DNA from: Paraburkholderia acidisoli
Lineage (GTDB): Bacteria > Pseudomonadota > Gammaproteobacteria > Burkholderiales > Burkholderiaceae
DNA: 64,000 nt
Direction of reading: 5' to 3'
Assembly: GCF_009789675.1 (NCBI RefSeq)
Contig: NZ_CP046916.1
Location: 1,054,001 to 1,118,000, forward strand
In this document: piece by piece, positions 52,564 through 64,000 of the stretch
Layout: each line of letters starts with the position of its first letter
Position numbering within the stretch: position 1 is the first letter of the stretch
Translations under genes and position numbers: made by a program
The notes under the pieces: model-generated
Database searches by the model: none
Told to the model about the DNA's origin: nothing
The model's input: the letters and a program-made list of their open reading frames with translations, nothing else

Positions 52564-53487
52564 TCAAACGGCTGCCGCGGTGGTGGAATACGCGGCCTCG
52601 CGTGCGACGAGCGGCGCCATCACGTCGGCGAGACGCTGGCGCAGCGCGGCCGATGCGGGCTTGAGCGGCGGCAGCACGTCGCCGAACGGCAAGCCTTGCA
52701 ACGTGAGCGCGGCCTTGATGGGCGCGGGATTCGGTTCGGCGAAGATGGCGTCGATCAGCGGGCGCAGCGTGGCGTGCAGCGCGACCGCCTGGTCGAGCTG
52801 ACCACCGGACGCGAGCGAGAGCACGCGCGCCCATTGCTTCGGCACAAGATTCGAGCTGGAGATGATGCCGCCCACGGCGCCCATGGCCACGTGCAGCGGG
52901 AGCACGTCTTCCTCGCCGCTCAGGATCGCGATCTTCGAGGCGCAGAGTTCGGCCGCGCGCATCTGCGTGGCGAGATCCGGGTTGCACGCCTTGATGCCGA
53001 CGACGCGCGTGAGCGCGGCGAGCTTCGCGACGGTTTCGTAGTGCAGCGAGACGCCCGTGCGATACGGGATTTCGTAGAGGATGATGTCCGCGTCGACTTC
53101 GTCGGCGAAGCGACGGTAGTAATCGACGATCCCTTCCTGGGTGGGCCGGAAATAGTACGGCGTAACGACCATGAGCGCCTTCGCGCCGGCCTTGACGAAG
53201 GCCTGGGCGTTGTCGATGGCGTCGCCCAGACCCGGCGAGAGGATGCCCGGCACGACAGGCAGCGCGCCCGCCGCCGCTTCGAGCGAGGTCTCCACCACGC
53301 GCATACGCTCGGCGAACGTCAACGCCGTGTATTCGCCGGTGCCGCCGAGCGGCACCACGCCGTCCGCGCCAGCCTCGACGAGTTTCCCGATCTGCGCCGC
53401 GAGCGGTGCGGCGACGAAGCGGCCGTCCGCGTCGAGAGGAGTGGGAACCGCCGTCAAAATGCCTGCATAGGGGTGCAACTTGCTCAT
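52564..53487 (-). CDS. DapA/NanA-family lyase
   Basis: A 307-residue class I aldolase-superfamily protein. GILTAVPTPLDADGRF, GGTGEYTALTFAER, TPYYFRPTQEGIVDYYR (active Tyr) and VVGIKACN (Schiff-base Lys) are in place, and AEPNPAPIKAAL near the end matches the family. Members include dihydrodipicolinate synthase, N-acetylneuraminate lyase and hydroxyproline-pathway deaminases. As first gene of the PotABC-GlcD-LldD-HutG operon it is a catabolic lyase or deaminase rather than a lysine-biosynthesis enzyme. Start at 53487 gives MSKLHPYAGIL; upstream codons in frame lack support. Confidence 0.88.
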   Translation of the reverse strand: MSKLHPYAGILTAVPTPLDADGRFVAAPLAAQIGKLVEAGADGVVPLGGTGEYTALTFAERMRVVETSLEAAAGALPVVPGILSPGLGDAIDNAQAFVKAGAKALMVVTPYYFRPTQEGIVDYYRRFADEVDADIILYEIPYRTGVSLHYETVAKLAALTRVVGIKACNPDLATQMRAAELCASKIAILSGEEDVLPLHVAMGAVGGIISSSNLVPKQWARVLSLASGGQLDQAVALHATLRPLIDAIFAEPNPAPIKAALTLQGLPFGDVLPPLKPASAALRQRLADVMAPLVAREAAYSTTAAAV

Positions 53488-54307
53488 CAGTACGCTCTTC
53501 GAGATTGGGCCGGTCAACGTCGCCGGAAATTTGAATGAGACTCCATGGCTTGAACGATAAGGAGGCAAAAAAACCGCGCCTGCACCATCAGTGCCAGTTA
53601 CCCTCTTTATAAGGCCTCGTTATTCAATGCTGGAACTGGCTTGCGTAAAAAGGTGCCGCGCCGGGTTGCGTCGGCGAAAAGCTTGGGGAGGCACGATGAA
53701 TCGACGCGAATTGCGGGTATTCCCTGATTTGCCCCTGTATTTTTATCGAGTAGCCCGGCGGTTGATGGAATTGTCGCCTCACAAAAAACTGTTGCAAACG
53801 TTTGTGATCGCGGGTGGGCGGTATGGGGCGCGGGCAATGGCGGGGTTGACGCGGGCGGTTGTGGGACGCAGAGATCGAGGGCTCGTCCTAGCCGTCACAC
53901 TTCGATTCGCCGGGATGAAGCTTTGGAGATGGTGGATGCCTGCTTGAACATGCAGTTGTCGTGCAAGCGATCGATGGGGCGGTACATCCCCGCATAGACA
54001 AGCTGGGGTATTTTTCCACTCGGTCAGTAACGTGCTTTGGGTTCGACACCACCGCGGCGAATTAAGCAAATGGGCTTACTCAAACAAACATGGAGTGTTG
54101 AGGCCGCAATCTTTTAGGTAGTTTTTTGCTTAAGCCAAATATTAGTTGGGTTGTAAACCGTAGTGTTCCCACTCCGCTTCCATCTCGAAGCAGGCGACCG
54201 GCGACCCGACGTCGAGTGTACGTCCGTTCGCCAGCGTACATTACGTTCCGCTTTCCTCCGCCAATATTTCCGTCATTGATCCACGTCCAGATGCAACAGG
54301 GGGCAAT
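53488..54307. other. 820-bp region without a confident gene
   Basis: Contains the promoter side of the DapA operon and the palindrome CAAACGTTTG at 53795-53804. An open frame at 53591-53947 (+) and one at 53607-53837 (-) overlap and neither has family features or a clear start. Composition becomes less GC-rich here. Confidence 0.55.
53795..53804. promoter_or_regulatory. CAAACGTTTG palindrome
   Basis: A second copy of the decamer at 6098-6107, about 308 bp upstream of the DapA-family gene. It resembles a LacI/GalR-family half-site pair; function inferred only. Confidence 0.3.
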
Positions 54308-54874
54308 ATGGCCAAATGGCTGGCAGCGCTTTCGGTAGTATTCAACAAAGATCATCAGCACATCGCAACGTGGATACAAACGCTCGTGGTCGTACTGGGA
54401 GTAATCATTGCAAACTTTCAACTGGCGGCAATGGTTGAACAAAATGATATTACTCGTAACACGAAGCTCCATGACTTGCTCGAAGAATATCGCAGGGACA
54501 TCGCACAACCCATCTTTCTCCTCGAGGGTGCGATTATTCGTGCTGGACGTCCGGAGACAAGCGACCAAGAAATGAAAGACGATTTTGCAACCGTTCTCCC
54601 CCAACAAACTCTCGCGAAGTACATCGATTTCCTGAAGCGCATGGAGACTTGTGGAGAAGACCATGTATGCAATCGATCACAAACCTCTGCGTTTGTTTGC
54701 AAGAAAGCCAAGACCACATGGCAAGCCCTGAACTATTATTCGAAGGACGTTCGCTTCGCACCATGGAAGAGCATGGAGATGATGAAATACAGCTCGCAAC
54801 TGGATGATCTAATCGCACGCGAATGCGACTATTTCAGCGCGGTCTGGCTTCGCATGAAGACAGATATTTTCTGA
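54308..54874 (+). CDS. Unknown single-pass membrane protein
   Basis: A 188-residue protein I do not recognise. One membrane segment (about residues 20-41, IATWIQTLVVVLGVIIANFQLAAM) precedes a hydrophilic, mostly helical domain with several Cys (TCGEDHVCNRS, then VCKK, later ECDY) that could form disulfides or bind metal. AGGGGG lies 8 bases before the ATG. Codon use is less GC-rich than in the catabolic island, suggesting an accessory gene. No functional neighbour is evident. Confidence 0.65.
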   Translation: MAKWLAALSVVFNKDHQHIATWIQTLVVVLGVIIANFQLAAMVEQNDITRNTKLHDLLEEYRRDIAQPIFLLEGAIIRAGRPETSDQEMKDDFATVLPQQTLAKYIDFLKRMETCGEDHVCNRSQTSAFVCKKAKTTWQALNYYSKDVRFAPWKSMEMMKYSSQLDDLIARECDYFSAVWLRMKTDIF

Positions 54875-55325
54875 TCTACGGATTATCCCAACCTTACGCG
54901 GAACGCAGGGCGATAAGACCATTCGCCGTGCGCTATTCTCGCGATGCTTAACCATGTCGGGGACTCGATCGGAGCGAATCGATCACTGGTGCCGGCCACC
55001 TCTAACGGCGCCGCCTCTCCCGGCTACGTCGACGCGCGTAGAAGTCATGCAAACGCATCGACCTTCGGCCGGTACGGCAAGAATTCTCCGCTATGCTCAC
55101 AATGGTTCGGATTCCTTTAAAACTAATCTGATAGATAACTACCGAAGCAGCACTTCGAAAAACGCCGTCAACAATCGCCTTACTTTCGCGCCGCTTCGCT
55201 GTCTCTTACCATCTCGTCCCAGACACTGCACACGCCTGAATCACAGAGATTCTTCAGCGTATATGCTTATCGGAAATCGCTAAATCGCTCTGTTATCCCA
55301 AGTTATCGAACGAACGGAGATAGCT
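54875..55325. other. 451-bp intergenic region
   Basis: No supported gene or clear repeat. It contains moderately AT-rich sequence (around 55090-55160) that may hold the alkylsulfatase promoter. Confidence 0.5.
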
Positions 55326-57380
55326 ATGTCCGAATCGAATGACGCGACAAAAACAACGGGTAGAAGGGCCTTCTTGAAGAACGTAGCGGTCGTTGGGGCG
55401 GCTTCGGGGTTCTCCGGCGTGGTGGGCGATTCGTTCGCGCAATCCGGCTCGGCTTTGCCCCCGACCACGCCGGCCGCAAAGCCGGCCACCGCGTCGACGA
55501 TTGCCCTGAACAAGCAATACGCAGACTTCCTCAGTTTCGCCGATGCGCAGGACTTCGAGGACGCGCGCCGGGGACTCGTCGCAACGCTGCCCGAACCGGT
55601 CGTCATACCCGGACCAGGAGGCACGCCAGCATGGGATCTGGCGCAGTTCGCATTCGTCAGCGGCGGCCCCGAGAACAACGCACCGCCCACCGTCAACCCG
55701 AGCCTCTGGCGTAACGCCAAGCTCAACATGAACCACGGACTCTTCGAGGTAGTCGACGGCATATGGCAGGTACGCGGCTATGATCTATCGGTCATGAGCA
55801 TCATTCGCGGCGACACCGGTTATATCGTCGTCGACCCGTTCATCACGACCGAAGTCGCCTCGACAGTTTGGAAACAACTGGTTATTCCGCATCTGGGCGA
55901 TAAACCGATCACGCATGTGATCTATACGCACAGCCATGTCGACCACTACGGCGGGGTGCGCGGCCTGGCAAGCGACGAAGACCTGAACTCCGGCAAGGTG
56001 CAGATCGTGGCGCCCGTCGGCTTCACCGAGGCCGCCGTAGGCGAGAACGTCATTGCGGGAAACGCAATGGGACGCCGGGCGAGTTTCATGTACGGGTCTC
56101 TGCTTCCGCGTAGCGCTGCTGGCATCGTGGATGGAGGTCTGGGTAAAACCACGTCGGTCGGCACGATCACGCTGGCTGTGCCGACCCTGTTCGCCGAAAA
56201 GACCGGACAGAAGATGACGCTCGACGGCGTCGAGGTCGTGGTGCTGATGGCGCCGGAGTCGGAAGCGCCCTCGGAGTTCATGTTCTATCTGCCGAAATAC
56301 AAGGCTTTCTGCGCGGCCGAAGACGCCACGCACACTCTGCACAATCTGTACACGCTTCGTGGCGCCAAAATGCGCGATGGTCTGCTGTGGTCGAAGTATC
56401 TGCAGACGGCGCTCGATATGTTCGGCGGCGACGCACAGGTTCTATTCGCTTCGCACTACTGGCCAACCTGGGGCAACGACCGGATCGTTCCTTTCCTGCG
56501 CGCGCAGCGCGACATGTTCCGCTACCTGCACGACCAAACCTTGCGCATGGCCAACCAGGGCTTGACGCCGCTGGAAATCGGCGAGGCGATGCGGCTGCCA
56601 GACAGTCTCGCCAAACACTGGTATTGCCGCAGCTATTACGGCACGGTCTATCACGACGCCGTGGCGCAATACAACCTGCGTCTCGGCTTTTTCGACGGGG
56701 TGCCGGCCAATCTTCACCGTCTGCCGCCAACCGAAGCCGGAAAGCGTTACGTCGAGTTCATGGGCGGCGCCCCCGCCGTGCTCAGCAAGGCGCGCGCCTA
56801 TTTCAACAAGGGCGACTACCGCTGGGTGGCCGAGGTCGTCAATCAGGTCGTATTCGCCGAACCACAAAACATAGCAGCCCGACAGCTTCTGGCGGACACT
56901 TATGAGCAGTTGGGCTATCAGTCCGAATCCGCTCCCTGGCGCAACTTTTATCTCACCGGCGCGATGGAACTGCGCGACGGCGTGAGGAAGCTGCCGGCGC
57001 CTAATCCGCAGAGCCCCGACACCATTCAGGCGATGCCGCTGCCCATGTTCCTCGACTACCTCGGCATCCGGCTGAACGGCGATCGCGCGGCCGGCAAAAC
57101 GGCGTCGTTCAATCTCTCGCTCACCGACACGAAGGAGCATTACGTCCTCGGCGTCGAAAACAGTGCCCTGCACTATTCACGAGACACGAACGCGCAGAGT
57201 GCCGATGCGACCGTAACGATGTCGCGCGCCGATCTCAACGACATCATGATGGGCAAGACCAATATGCAAAAGCTCGTGATGGCAGGAAACGTGAAGATCG
57301 ACGGCAATAGCCAGAAGTTGGGGGAGTTCGTATCGTGGCTCGATACGTTCGACTTCTGGTTCAACATCGTTACGCCCTGA
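55326..57380 (+). CDS. SdsA1-like alkylsulfatase, Tat-exported MBL-fold enzyme
   Basis: A 684-residue metallo-beta-lactamase-fold sulfatase. A twin-arginine leader (GRRAFLKNVAVVGAASGF) is followed by a Zn motif THSHVDHYGG with His202, His204, Asp206 and His207. EDATHTLHNLYTLRGAKMRD adds the second metal set, then come the alkylsulfatase dimerisation domain (about 430-560) and an SCP2-like C-terminal domain (about 570-684). Relatives cleave SDS and secondary alkyl sulfates to alcohol and sulfate. Length and order match SdsA1. A 172-residue protein follows 9 bp downstream. Confidence 0.92.
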   Translation: MSESNDATKTTGRRAFLKNVAVVGAASGFSGVVGDSFAQSGSALPPTTPAAKPATASTIALNKQYADFLSFADAQDFEDARRGLVATLPEPVVIPGPGGTPAWDLAQFAFVSGGPENNAPPTVNPSLWRNAKLNMNHGLFEVVDGIWQVRGYDLSVMSIIRGDTGYIVVDPFITTEVASTVWKQLVIPHLGDKPITHVIYTHSHVDHYGGVRGLASDEDLNSGKVQIVAPVGFTEAAVGENVIAGNAMGRRASFMYGSLLPRSAAGIVDGGLGKTTSVGTITLAVPTLFAEKTGQKMTLDGVEVVVLMAPESEAPSEFMFYLPKYKAFCAAEDATHTLHNLYTLRGAKMRDGLLWSKYLQTALDMFGGDAQVLFASHYWPTWGNDRIVPFLRAQRDMFRYLHDQTLRMANQGLTPLEIGEAMRLPDSLAKHWYCRSYYGTVYHDAVAQYNLRLGFFDGVPANLHRLPPTEAGKRYVEFMGGAPAVLSKARAYFNKGDYRWVAEVVNQVVFAEPQNIAARQLLADTYEQLGYQSESAPWRNFYLTGAMELRDGVRKLPAPNPQSPDTIQAMPLPMFLDYLGIRLNGDRAAGKTASFNLSLTDTKEHYVLGVENSALHYSRDTNAQSADATVTMSRADLNDIMMGKTNMQKLVMAGNVKIDGNSQKLGEFVSWLDTFDFWFNIVTP

Positions 57381-60843: not shown

Positions 60844-61556
60844 TGCTTCGCCTCGTCAGCAGCTATTGACCACCATGACGATGTGCACGTGTAATCGCTT
60901 CTGCCACTCAAGCGGGGATTCGACAGATCGGGGCGATGGAAGAGCGCCCAGTGTTGATCGCGTGCCAGCACGAGTCGGAGCGAACAAGGCAAAGCAACTG
61001 GCGGGAAAGCGCTCCATAGCGGACGTATTGCCAACGTTGATCGAACGGCGGCGTTGGGTCGGGCTGAGTCCATCGGTGCCTTGATTTCATCGCCGCGAAG
61101 CGGTCATTGGTGTTTCGCTTCCCAAAAGCGGCCGGTCGCGTCAACGCGTACTCCCGACCCAATGCCGACGGTCGCGCCAGCGCGGCATATAGGACGGCTT
61201 CCAAGGCAGAACGGACATTCGTTTAGGCGTATCGGAAGACCGGAGTTCGGCCGAAGCCGTCGTTCGCGATCCACCTAGGGATCGCACCTAGTTACTTCGC
61301 AAATCGAGCTTTTCGCCAAAATAAAAGTAGCCGAAGGCAGCGAAGACACGGATATTGGCAATCCATTATGCATATATTTCGCGAGCAGTAGCACCTGAAT
61401 GCATAGGCCCCTGGCGACTCGGCCGTGCCGCCTCGTCGCTCCTCAGATAAAAAACGGACGTCACCGAGATCGCTGCGGTGGTCGCATTGGACGACATGCA
61501 TGTTCGTCCGATACTATTGCTTGAACAACAATCCACTGCACGGGCCAAGGAACCAA
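60844..61556. other. 713-bp intergenic stretch, probably decayed
   Basis: No convincing gene. Several short motifs of the form GCGGNCRTT recur (near 61018, 61096, 61124 and 61207), resembling degraded intergenic repeat sequence common in this group. A 7-bp stem GCGATCC/GGATCGC lies at 61266-61285. The stretch forms the border with the AT-rich nuclease gene. Confidence 0.5.
61266..61285. other. Stem-loop GCGATCC-N6-GGATCGC
   Basis: Perfect 7-bp stem with a 6-base loop (ACCTAG), 272 bp before the nuclease-NTPase gene. No U-run. Could be part of a decayed repeat or an island boundary. Confidence 0.4.
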
Positions 61557-64000
61557 GTGAAAAACAAGAAACAAGTGAATTCGGACGATAAACTTGAAAA
61601 GCTTATGGAAGTTGCGGAATTTGCAAGAGCTCGCGACATCAATGAGGCGGAAACGAGGCACAAAGTGATTGATTTCGTGCTGCACGATTTTCTGTCCTGG
61701 CCCAAGAATCGCGTAGCTGTCGAGGAGTACATCTCGCCCGGATTTGCAGATTATGTCTTGAAGAAAAGCAATGGCGATGATTTATTATTTATTGAAGCAA
61801 AACGCGCCGGAGTTTTTTTTGATCTACCGATCCCCCATTCCAACACTGAAACTTCATGTTATATCGGAATTGCAAAATTATTGACCAATGAGAATATAAA
61901 GCTGGCGATGCAACAGGTTCGGGCATATTGTTTTGATACAGGGTGCGAATACGCGTGCATTACAAATGGCTTGGAGTGGATTTTCTTCAAAACATTTGAA
62001 AAAGGAAAGCGCTGGGAAACGCTGCAAGCGTTCGTTGTAAGAAGCCTCGATTTTTTTAAAACTGAATACACTAAATCTATTAATAATCTATCGTTCATTG
62101 CAATCACTGAACGAATGTCGTTGCCGACGCTGCTGAGCAGCGCGCCTCCCAAGGATCGGAGCGTTTTTTATCCAAAGGAAAAAATATCATCCTATTCGCA
62201 TACGATTACTGCGAATCGACTCGCAACGCAATTGCGCCCGATTGTGAACAGGTATTTTGGCGTAATTAAGGATGATGACACTGAATTCATGGAGCGCTGC
62301 TATGTTTCCCAGCGAGAATATCAAGGAACATCCGATGGTATGCGATCTCTCATTCAGGATTCTCTATCTCCATATTTTCAAGGTTATGGCGTTCAGCAGC
62401 TTGAAGATACCGGTAAAGGTGGTCGTCTTGGAGGGCGTCTCACAAAAAACATTAAAGATAAGAGGAAAGGTGAAGTCTTGGTTTTGTTCGGTGGTAAAGG
62501 AGCAGGAAAGTCGACTTTTATCAAGCGACTCTTGCATCACAATGCGCCAAGGTGGTTAAGAGACCATGCCGCAATAGCAATTATTGATCTCCTTAAAATC
62601 CCGGAGGATGTCGGGGTTATCAGATCAACAATTTGGCAAGGGCTCGTTTCGCATCTTGACAAGGAAGATCTTTTGCGAGCGGATCGCGATCTTCTATTGA
62701 AAGAGCTTTTTTATGACCGATTTGCCGTTGCACGCAAGCAGGACCTCGCAGGCTTATCGCCCACTTCGGAGAGCTATAATATTAAGCTCAATTCGCTCAT
62801 CGCAAGTTGGAAGGCGGACTTACCATATTGTGCCGAGAGATTGGTAGAGCGTCTCGCGGGGCAAGATCGCGGGGCAATTGTCGTCATTGACAACACCGAT
62901 CAGTATTCTTCGGACGTCCAGGATTTTTGCTTTTCCTCTGCACAAGAAATATCGAACAAATTGCAGTGTGTCACGCTAATCTCAATGCGAGAGGAGCGAT
63001 TTTACGATTCAAAAATACACGGCGTTCTTGACGCGTTCCAAAATTCTGGATTTCATATTAGCTCTCCCAAGCCCGCTGAGGTTTTCAAGAGACGCCTGGA
63101 CTATACCGTATCAGTACTATCCGGAAGGCAGTCGAGCGACGAAGATGATTTTGATATGGGCGGCGTAGATTTTATACAAGAGAGCGCTAAATATCTGCGG
63201 ATACTTAGTCGAGAGTTTTCGAATGATCAGTCTCCTTTGAATAAATTTTTGACAGCCTGTGCTCATGGAGATATCCGCCTTTCGCTTGATCTTTTTCGTA
63301 GTTTTCTCCTTTCAGGCTATACCAACGTTGAGGAGATGATTGCCTATGGAACCTGGAATTTTCAGATTCACCAAGTGATCAAACCCGTGATGATCCCGAA
63401 CCGGTACTTTTATGATGAATCGTTAAGCGACATACCTAACATATATCAGCTCCGCTCCATTCGGCACGGGTCGCATTTTACCGCACTTCGCATCCTCAGA
63501 AAGCTGTCCAAAGGCATCGACCCAAGCGCGCCATCCTATTTTTCTGTCGCCGAATTGAGGGCGTATTTTTCCGAAACATTCGGAATGCTTGATGATTTCG
63601 AGCAGAACTTGGATGTTCTGCTTCGCCATGGTTTTGTCGAGTCAAACAACCGATTGGATGCATATTCAGAGTCAGTTGATAGCGTGAAAATAACCAGCTA
63701 CGGCATGTACATGCTCGGTGAGTTGGCCTATTATTTTACCTATTTGGACCTTGTATGCACCGACTGCGGCATATTTAGCGAGACAACAAGCAATTACCTC
63801 ACGGAGGCCGCTCGCATAGAATATAACTATTTCACTCGTGGCGAACGAGTTGAGCGAGTGAAGGTCAGACTTGAGCGCGTCGAAGAATTCATTAAATATA
63901 TAAAATCTGAAGAATCCCGCGAACGAGAGTTGTACTCGTTGGGGATGCCTGAAGAAGAAATGTTCACTGCAAAAGCAGCGTTGAGCTTTGATAGTGAAAA
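61557..64000 (+). CDS. HsdR-N-type nuclease fused to P-loop NTPase (3' end outside window)
   Basis: An uninterrupted frame of at least 814 codons, still open at the right edge. GTG start at 61557 with AAGGA upstream. Residues about 25-170 match the type I restriction R-subunit N-terminal nuclease: EAETRHKVIDFVL (Glu32), GFADYVL (Asp65) and FIEAK (Glu80, Lys82), a full PD-(D/E)xK set. A P-loop NTPase follows: Walker A GGKGAGKST (Lys318) and Walker B AIVVIDNTDQ (Asp445), with ISMREERFYDS after it, STAND/KAP-like. The C-terminal half is helical without a helicase core, so it is not HsdR. Low GC and isolation suggest transfer. A defence role is inferred. Confidence 0.85.
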   Translation, partial: MKNKKQVNSDDKLEKLMEVAEFARARDINEAETRHKVIDFVLHDFLSWPKNRVAVEEYISPGFADYVLKKSNGDDLLFIEAKRAGVFFDLPIPHSNTETSCYIGIAKLLTNENIKLAMQQVRAYCFDTGCEYACITNGLEWIFFKTFEKGKRWETLQAFVVRSLDFFKTEYTKSINNLSFIAITERMSLPTLLSSAPPKDRSVFYPKEKISSYSHTITANRLATQLRPIVNRYFGVIKDDDTEFMERCYVSQREYQGTSDGMRSLIQDSLSPYFQGYGVQQLEDTGKGGRLGGRLTKNIKDKRKGEVLVLFGGKGAGKSTFIKRLLHHNAPRWLRDHAAIAIIDLLKIPEDVGVIRSTIWQGLVSHLDKEDLLRADRDLLLKELFYDRFAVARKQDLAGLSPTSESYNIKLNSLIASWKADLPYCAERLVERLAGQDRGAIVVIDNTDQYSSDVQDFCFSSAQEISNKLQCVTLISMREERFYDSKIHGVLDAFQNSGFHISSPKPAEVFKRRLDYTVSVLSGRQSSDEDDFDMGGVDFIQESAKYLRILSREFSNDQSPLNKFLTACAHGDIRLSLDLFRSFLLSGYTNVEEMIAYGTWNFQIHQVIKPVMIPNRYFYDESLSDIPNIYQLRSIRHGSHFTALRILRKLSKGIDPSAPSYFSVAELRAYFSETFGMLDDFEQNLDVLLRHGFVESNNRLDAYSESVDSVKITSYGMYMLGELAYYFTYLDLVCTDCGIFSETTSNYLTEAARIEYNYFTRGERVERVKVRLERVEEFIKYIKSEESRERELYSLGMPEEEMFTAKAALSFDSE

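Follow-up and report, generated by a model that had tools for sequence, protein, structure and literature searches.

A 2024 survey (PMC10853773) describes Orc/Cdc6 ATPases that occur with restriction endonucleases (REases) and winged helices as anti-invader systems. These 'HerA/FtsK capture' systems are presented there as sets, in one or several polypeptides, in which an Orc/Cdc6 AAA+ ATPase is combined with an active REase and a winged helix; a second, inactive REase separates the AAA+ domain from the winged helix, HerA/FtsK usually accompanies the set, and the neighbourhoods are mobile. In the defence system BREX (PMC12839542), an ORC/Cdc6 ATPase is found in BrxC and BrxD, with a winged helix in BrxC, although BREX is multi-gene and a fused N-terminal PD-(D/E)xK nuclease is not described in the accessible part of that paper. 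PD-(D/E)XK domains are also present in 13 of the 31 additional systems validated with DefensePredictor, according to the text of that report, and a system of the kind described here may be among them. Here we describe a gene at the right end of a 64,000-nucleotide stretch of Paraburkholderia acidisoli DNA (the window; bases 1054001-1118000 of contig C4 in a genome of 7.9 Mb and five contigs), whose product shares its ATPase type, active-looking nuclease, winged helix and mobile setting with the Orc/Cdc6-REase systems, but is a single protein with the nuclease placed first, and HerA/FtsK was not recognised among the open reading frames (ORFs) read at the locus. The nuclease domain is of the same type as that of BpuSI (type IIG, 3s1s), a restriction enzyme with its own methyltransferase, in place of which the window protein has an ATPase. 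Because the survey (PMC10853773) already describes anti-invader systems that combine Orc/Cdc6 with an REase, the idea is not categorically new; the newly noticed aspect is a nuclease-first single protein with optional OB-fold tails, and no description of this one-protein form was found in the literature searched by text (titles and abstract openings).

The open frame that begins at the GTG codon is a genuine gene: the longest open frame in 61001-64000 has 864 codons, compared with at most 241 in 500 base shuffles. A preliminary description of this DNA, made from the window's sequence alone, had proposed reading on downstream, and in the parent contig the gene ends at window position 64082, 82 bases beyond the window, to give a protein of 841 amino acids. 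That description had also considered that a helicase with adjacent hsdM/hsdS might follow, but reading by eye the ORFs between 50000 and 64000 and those of L002, a 20-kb stretch that reaches into the right flank, with a Pfam scan of five L002 ORFs, revealed no recognisable hsdM, hsdS or SF2 helicase. From its N-terminus, the protein consists of a PD-(D/E)xK nuclease of the HsdR_N/BpuSI type, an ORC/Cdc6-STAND ATPase and a winged helix, and it ends in a short tail of helices (Table 1).

Table 1. Features of the nuclease-ATPase gene and its left flank, in window coordinates.
Feature	Position	Strand	Details
Coding sequence	61557..64000	+	GTG start; residues 1-814 of 841; stop codon up to 64082, past window
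Shine-Dalgarno-like AAGGA	61547..61551	+	5 bases 5' of GTG 61557; read from sequence
PD-(D/E)xK nuclease domain	61581..62135	+	N-terminal, residues 9-193
Nuclease residues	Glu30 61644-61646; Asp65 61749-61751; Glu80 61794-61796; Lys82 61800-61802	+	
ORC/Cdc6-STAND type ATPase core	62217..63356	+	residues 221-600
Walker A	62490..62513	+	residues 312-319 (Lys318); G317, K318, S319 in 165/165 rows
Walker B	62877..62900	+	signature D445-N446-x-D448; D445, N446 165/165; D448 164/165 (one Tyr)
Arg478, taken as sensor-1 arginine	62988..62990	+	165/165 rows
Arg574 in HGDIRLSLDLFR, taken as sensor-2 arginine	63276..63278	+	165/165 rows; invariant in eight-sequence superfamily alignment
Winged helix	63480..63692	+	residues 642-712
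Helical tail	63696..63998	+	residues 714-814 within window, ~95 residues helical
Imperfect inverted repeat, left arm	61066..61158	-	right arm ~64429-64519, past window; flanks gene

When the 814 residues within the window were compared with Pfam, HSDR_N_2 (E 1.7e-4) and HSDR_N (E 9e-4) matched at the N-terminus and AAA_16 (E 5e-6) matched in mid-protein, all three below their curated cut-offs; up to E 1, SF2 helicase families were absent and a HerA-type P-loop gave a single weak match (12.6 bits). In structure searches, the nearest fold of the ATPase region among the matches listed was ORC/Cdc6, with CED-4, Apaf-1, NRC4 and RdrA also present, and structure comparison found the ORC/Cdc6-type fold together with the C-terminal winged helix. 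No solved structure was matched by sequence under E 0.01, with either the single sequence or a 68-row profile, and the weaker matches were mostly P-loop stretches; scans with PADLOC and NCBIfam gave weak P-loop or nuclease matches only. A viral structure library gave as its top match a protein of an uncultured phage that bears the name of the type I R N-terminal domain (TM 0.18/0.36). These comparisons bear out the nuclease fused to a STAND-class NTPase that had been proposed, and the missing helicase core of HsdR, in place of which there is an ORC-type fold. Two other details had to be revised. The C-terminus, taken for a long helical sensor, is a winged helix (residues 640-720 or so) followed by about 95 helical residues, and KAP is not the best label for the protein and lacks support, because Pfam KAP (PF07693) has no match at E≤1 and the fold is nearest ORC/Cdc6. 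The profile search suggested for Avs was equally negative: among PADLOC models only REase_I, mad8 and LeoA matched at E≤1, and none of the models for AVAST (Avs), NLR-like STAND proteins or RdrA. Among nine scanned relatives, PF07693 was above its cut-off in one (28.7 vs 20) and below it in two (17.9 and 16.4).

To follow the catalytic residues, we used 165 alignment rows, in which some proteins are counted twice, as protein matches and loci overlap; L046 (the same match as L045), L056-L058 (short matches) and L053 (a broken gene) were left out, and rows L033 and L038 were trimmed at their stop codon. Glu30 is Glu in 164 rows, with one gap, Asp65 is kept in 163 (one Asn, one gap), and Glu80 and Lys82 are each present in all 165. 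Asp65, Glu80, Lys82, Lys318 and Asp445 are thus present as first described, whereas Glu32, then named as the first acid, is Glu in only 112 rows and Asp in 41, and Glu30 is the conserved one. Homologues without the nuclease residues, which would have spoken against the preliminary proposal, were sought but did not appear; the residues are kept in 163-165 of the rows. Roles of the ATPase residues were assigned by eye: Arg478 is presumably the sensor-1 arginine, as in STAND proteins, and Arg574 we take to be the sensor-2 arginine, as in Cdc6; Arg513 is likewise present in 165/165 rows. Glu30, Asp65, Glu80, Lys82, Lys318, Asp445, Asn446, Asp448 and Arg574 are invariant among eight superfamily members, down to 19% identity. 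Judging from these alignments, the nuclease and ATPase sites are under strong constraint. In AAA+ ATPases a catalytic Glu usually follows the Walker B Asp, but it is absent here, the position being Asn446 in 165/165 rows, and Asn as well in 120/120 listed rows of a second branch of relatives that bears S1 tails.

A protein search found at least 558 relatives in the database at E≤0.001 among 7996 scored candidates, the best among the matches listed being a Burkholderia cepacia protein at 93% identity, and a second protein search gave a nearly identical close set. The 120 listed relatives are 811-885 amino acids long, and one cluster among them, named Pseudomonas aeruginosa, represents 236 contigs. 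A scan of 84,980 species genomes turned up 40 loci, and in 37 of these the match spans 3/4 of the query or more; the loci come from alpha-, beta- and gammaproteobacteria, a Desulfococcaceae, Syntrophus, Bacteroidota, a planctomycete and a verrucomicrobium. Matches were found in 29 plasmid records, with 80% or more of the query covered in seven and an identity of 60-80% in three, but there was none in E. coli genomes (DNA search with the Pantoea gene) or among 50,697 phage records at E≤1e-5, and none of 36 pattern matches on viral contigs was confirmed as a relative. With its own genome included in both counts, the gene has matches in 14 of 398 genomes of its family and 4 of 398 of its phylum. 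Four of the 14 have a copy of at least 43% identity over nearly the full length, the others being distant or partial; a full copy lies in Paraburkholderia ginsengisoli (C47:220303-222807).

The gene is horizontally spread. In a tree of 35 rows (L045 and L053 left out), the window gene groups with a Paraburkholderia, a Pantoea and a Pseudomonas (support 100/99), so that two beta- and two gammaproteobacterial rows are mixed in one well-supported set; the six Bacteroidota rows form one clade. The G+C content (GC) of the gene is 0.446, compared with a mean of 0.646 for equal-length stretches in 1-60000 (z -6.7), and its third-position value (GC3) is 0.46, compared with 0.77-0.87 in six other genes measured. 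The AT-rich composition given in the preliminary description is confirmed, and base composition and the mixed tree support foreign, mobile-looking DNA. Each of the four closest plasmid copies, which are all of those examined at roughly 60% identity and above, has an integrase, recombinase or transposase no more than 1 kb away. A recombinase- or transposase-like protein was found at 4/20 chromosomal loci and 0/20 control stretches of the same contigs (Fisher one-sided p 0.053), using the same ORF rule in both sets and 16 queries (2 of 18 were too short and were skipped). Pfam families near the gene (first 25 of 115) include resolvase (3 proteins), phage integrase (2) and IS66 (1), all of them absent from the first 25 of 129 families in the control. 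Over the 37 loci, with L046 and L056-L058 left out, no family of neighbouring genes keeps a constant position, and a conserved partner gene was rejected, the widest-spread neighbour clusters occurring in only 6/37 loci and at dissimilar distances. Because no such neighbour recurs, we believe that the gene acts alone.

The second branch comprises at least 942 relatives among 7998 candidates at E≤0.001, and it is homologous to the window family by profile over 702 columns (probability 99.9), with eleven checked residues kept in 120/120 listed rows. An S1 domain is precomputed in 71 of the 120 listed relatives of this branch (counted by hand), and in our own scan of nine relatives it was above the Pfam cut-off in two, both from the second branch (L013 and L015). 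In a plasmid relative from Rhodobacteraceae, the C-terminal end consists of two cold-shock domains. Both kinds of domain bind single-stranded nucleic acid, and it is mainly because some relatives bear them that we prefer direct sensing of nucleic acid to sensing of a phage protein.

Taken together, the computed domain order, intact residues, absence of a recurring partner gene and horizontal spread make it somewhat probable that we are dealing with a mobile nuclease, complete in one protein, that acts against invaders and is driven by its ATPase of the ORC/Cdc6-STAND type; defence against phages or plasmids is the predicted role that we infer as the most economical. At rest, the ATPase would be closed and bound to ADP. 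The winged helix, joined in some relatives by an S1 or cold-shock tail, would touch foreign or replicating nucleic acid, whereupon binding of ATP would allow a ring or other oligomer to assemble on the nucleic acid, so that two or more PD-(D/E)xK domains would meet and cut DNA, which might be the invader's or, as abortive infection, that of the host cell. The Asn that takes the place of the usual Walker B Glu suggests that the ATPase works as a slow switch and not as a fast motor.

Several points weigh against this reading. RNA might be the substrate of the nuclease, or its role might be regulatory. Tails of the S1 or cold-shock kind belong to relatives, and the window protein has none. No PADLOC model fits the protein or the eight relatives scanned beyond weak matches, the best of them at 7.6e-6. 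At E≤1e-20, PADLOC matches fell into 51 families for the 128 proteins of 20 loci near the gene and into 31 families for the 138 proteins of 20 matched control stretches, a comparison that counts families, not proteins, and does not show enrichment; the contrast in mobile genes falls short of p 0.05.

A more specific possibility, which we put forward tentatively, is an immune enzyme that resembles origin licensing, in which the ORC/Cdc6-type ATPase would load directly on foreign DNA or RNA that is being replicated or is single-stranded, and the fused restriction nuclease would then cut. Loading would take place through the winged helix and swappable tails (none, S1 or twin cold-shock), without a modification partner or a protein trigger.

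It is somewhat unlikely that the protein is instead, as the preliminary description had proposed, a STAND sensor of a phage component, in which binding to the C-terminal part would lead the ATPase to oligomerise and the nuclease to kill the cell, after the manner of Avs or NLR-like proteins. Such a sensor would be consistent with the presence of CED-4, Apaf-1, NRC4 and RdrA among the fold matches and with the invariance of Arg478 (165/165); however, the Avs models of PADLOC are unmatched at E≤1, the C-terminus is a winged helix with about 95 helical residues and no repeat sensor is seen in the model, some relatives bear tails that bind nucleic acid, and 841 amino acids is short for Avs. We regard as unlikely a role in the biology of mobile elements, with an ORC- or TnsC-like ATPase and its nuclease aiding element movement, replication or the exclusion of rivals, since no neighbour family holds a fixed place among the 37 loci, so that the gene behaves as cargo, and neither the phage records (at E≤1e-5) nor the viral contigs yielded a confirmed relative. 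A chromosomal repair or replication factor would suit the ORC/Cdc6 fold and winged helix, but is very improbable for a gene of foreign base composition and patchy occurrence (14/398 family and 4/398 phylum genomes). It is scarcely credible that the gene is what remains of a type I restriction enzyme after loss of its helicase, for although the HSDR_N type nuclease is N-terminal as in HsdR with its residues in place, and relatives carry type I names in databases, there is no SF2 helicase match, the ATPase is a different, intact one with its own winged helix, the listed relatives keep to 811-885 amino acids, and hsdM/hsdS were not recognised in the ORFs read.

The neighbourhood of the gene was also scanned for known defence genes. 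Among 25 families listed for each PADLOC set, those near the gene include PDC-S06, Mza, PD-Lambda-5, AriA, reverse transcriptase, GajB, Old and Ppl, and those in the control include Hachiman HamA/HamB, a type IV enzyme, AbiEii, mad3 and QatC. An earlier control-free scan of 242/245 neighbour ORFs, chosen by script with three of L002 omitted, had looked persuasive, but because the matched control also holds PADLOC matches and the 20 loci and 20 controls were not separated, enrichment in defence islands is not claimed. Of the mobile defence locus proposed in the preliminary description, the mobile-looking character is supported, by GC and tree, while the defence neighbourhood could not be told from the matched control. 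The surroundings of two distant relatives count in favour of the anti-invader reading. L122, on a 38 kb Shewanella plasmid, adjoins an IS30 transposase, an annotated DNA methyltransferase and a restriction endonuclease. L063 (24% identity, named P-loop NTPase fold protein), in which KAP is above the cut-off, lies on an IncFIB Klebsiella record of 109 kb that may be a phage-plasmid, as it has phage-type genes, including one for a phage N-6-adenine methyltransferase.

To the right of the gene, outside the window, the next clear frame encodes 216 amino acids (L002:8841-9491, 64841-65491 in the window frame) and is AT-rich (GC 0.487). It has a D...EFK pattern and a very weak match to Shedu SduA_C (12.3 bits, E 0.2, below the cut-off), and is possibly a second small nuclease. 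Relatives below 60% identity occur on 110 plasmid records, 80 of them Klebsiella, and one that was looked up is near a caspase-family gene. The inverted repeat has three matches in the 7.9 Mb genome, all at this locus (61066-61158, 64300-64530 and 65865-65982 in the window frame), which bracket both AT-rich genes; as all three lie at one locus, the repeat was rejected as a signal of mobility. Similar stretches occur on 18 plasmid records, 13 of them Paraburkholderia, and of four related repeats looked up on Paraburkholderia plasmids, two were ordinary intergenic sequence, one was near IS91 and IS66 genes, and one was in an unannotated record. A clean empty site was also sought by comparing ten stretches of the same genus, and rejected, as the locus is at a synteny break and the comparison defined no insertion edge. 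An ABC-F gene is common to all ten, and on the gene's side seven match nothing further, while L107 has short repeat matches only, L111 an inverted piece of 66192-67985, and L115 pieces of the far flank at 70530-77511. A second, milder dip in GC (0.54-0.56) was seen at 53001-56000. Among incomplete copies elsewhere, the Paraburkholderia ginsengisoli genome has an extra, C-terminal-only copy (L018; query residues 493-825, 50% identity, 346-amino-acid frame), a similar one is on plasmid record NZ_CP066077.1 of the same species, and the Brucella cytisi copy (L053) is broken into three overlapping matches.

If the anti-invader reading is true, a large family, whose two branches (at least 558 and at least 942 proteins) are mostly named in listings 'hypothetical protein' or after type I restriction, would be made up of one-gene immune enzymes built on the class of ATPase that marks replication origins. 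A single polypeptide chain would then link replication licensing to restriction, and the exchangeable tails with their OB folds would offer a handle on the ligand that is sensed.
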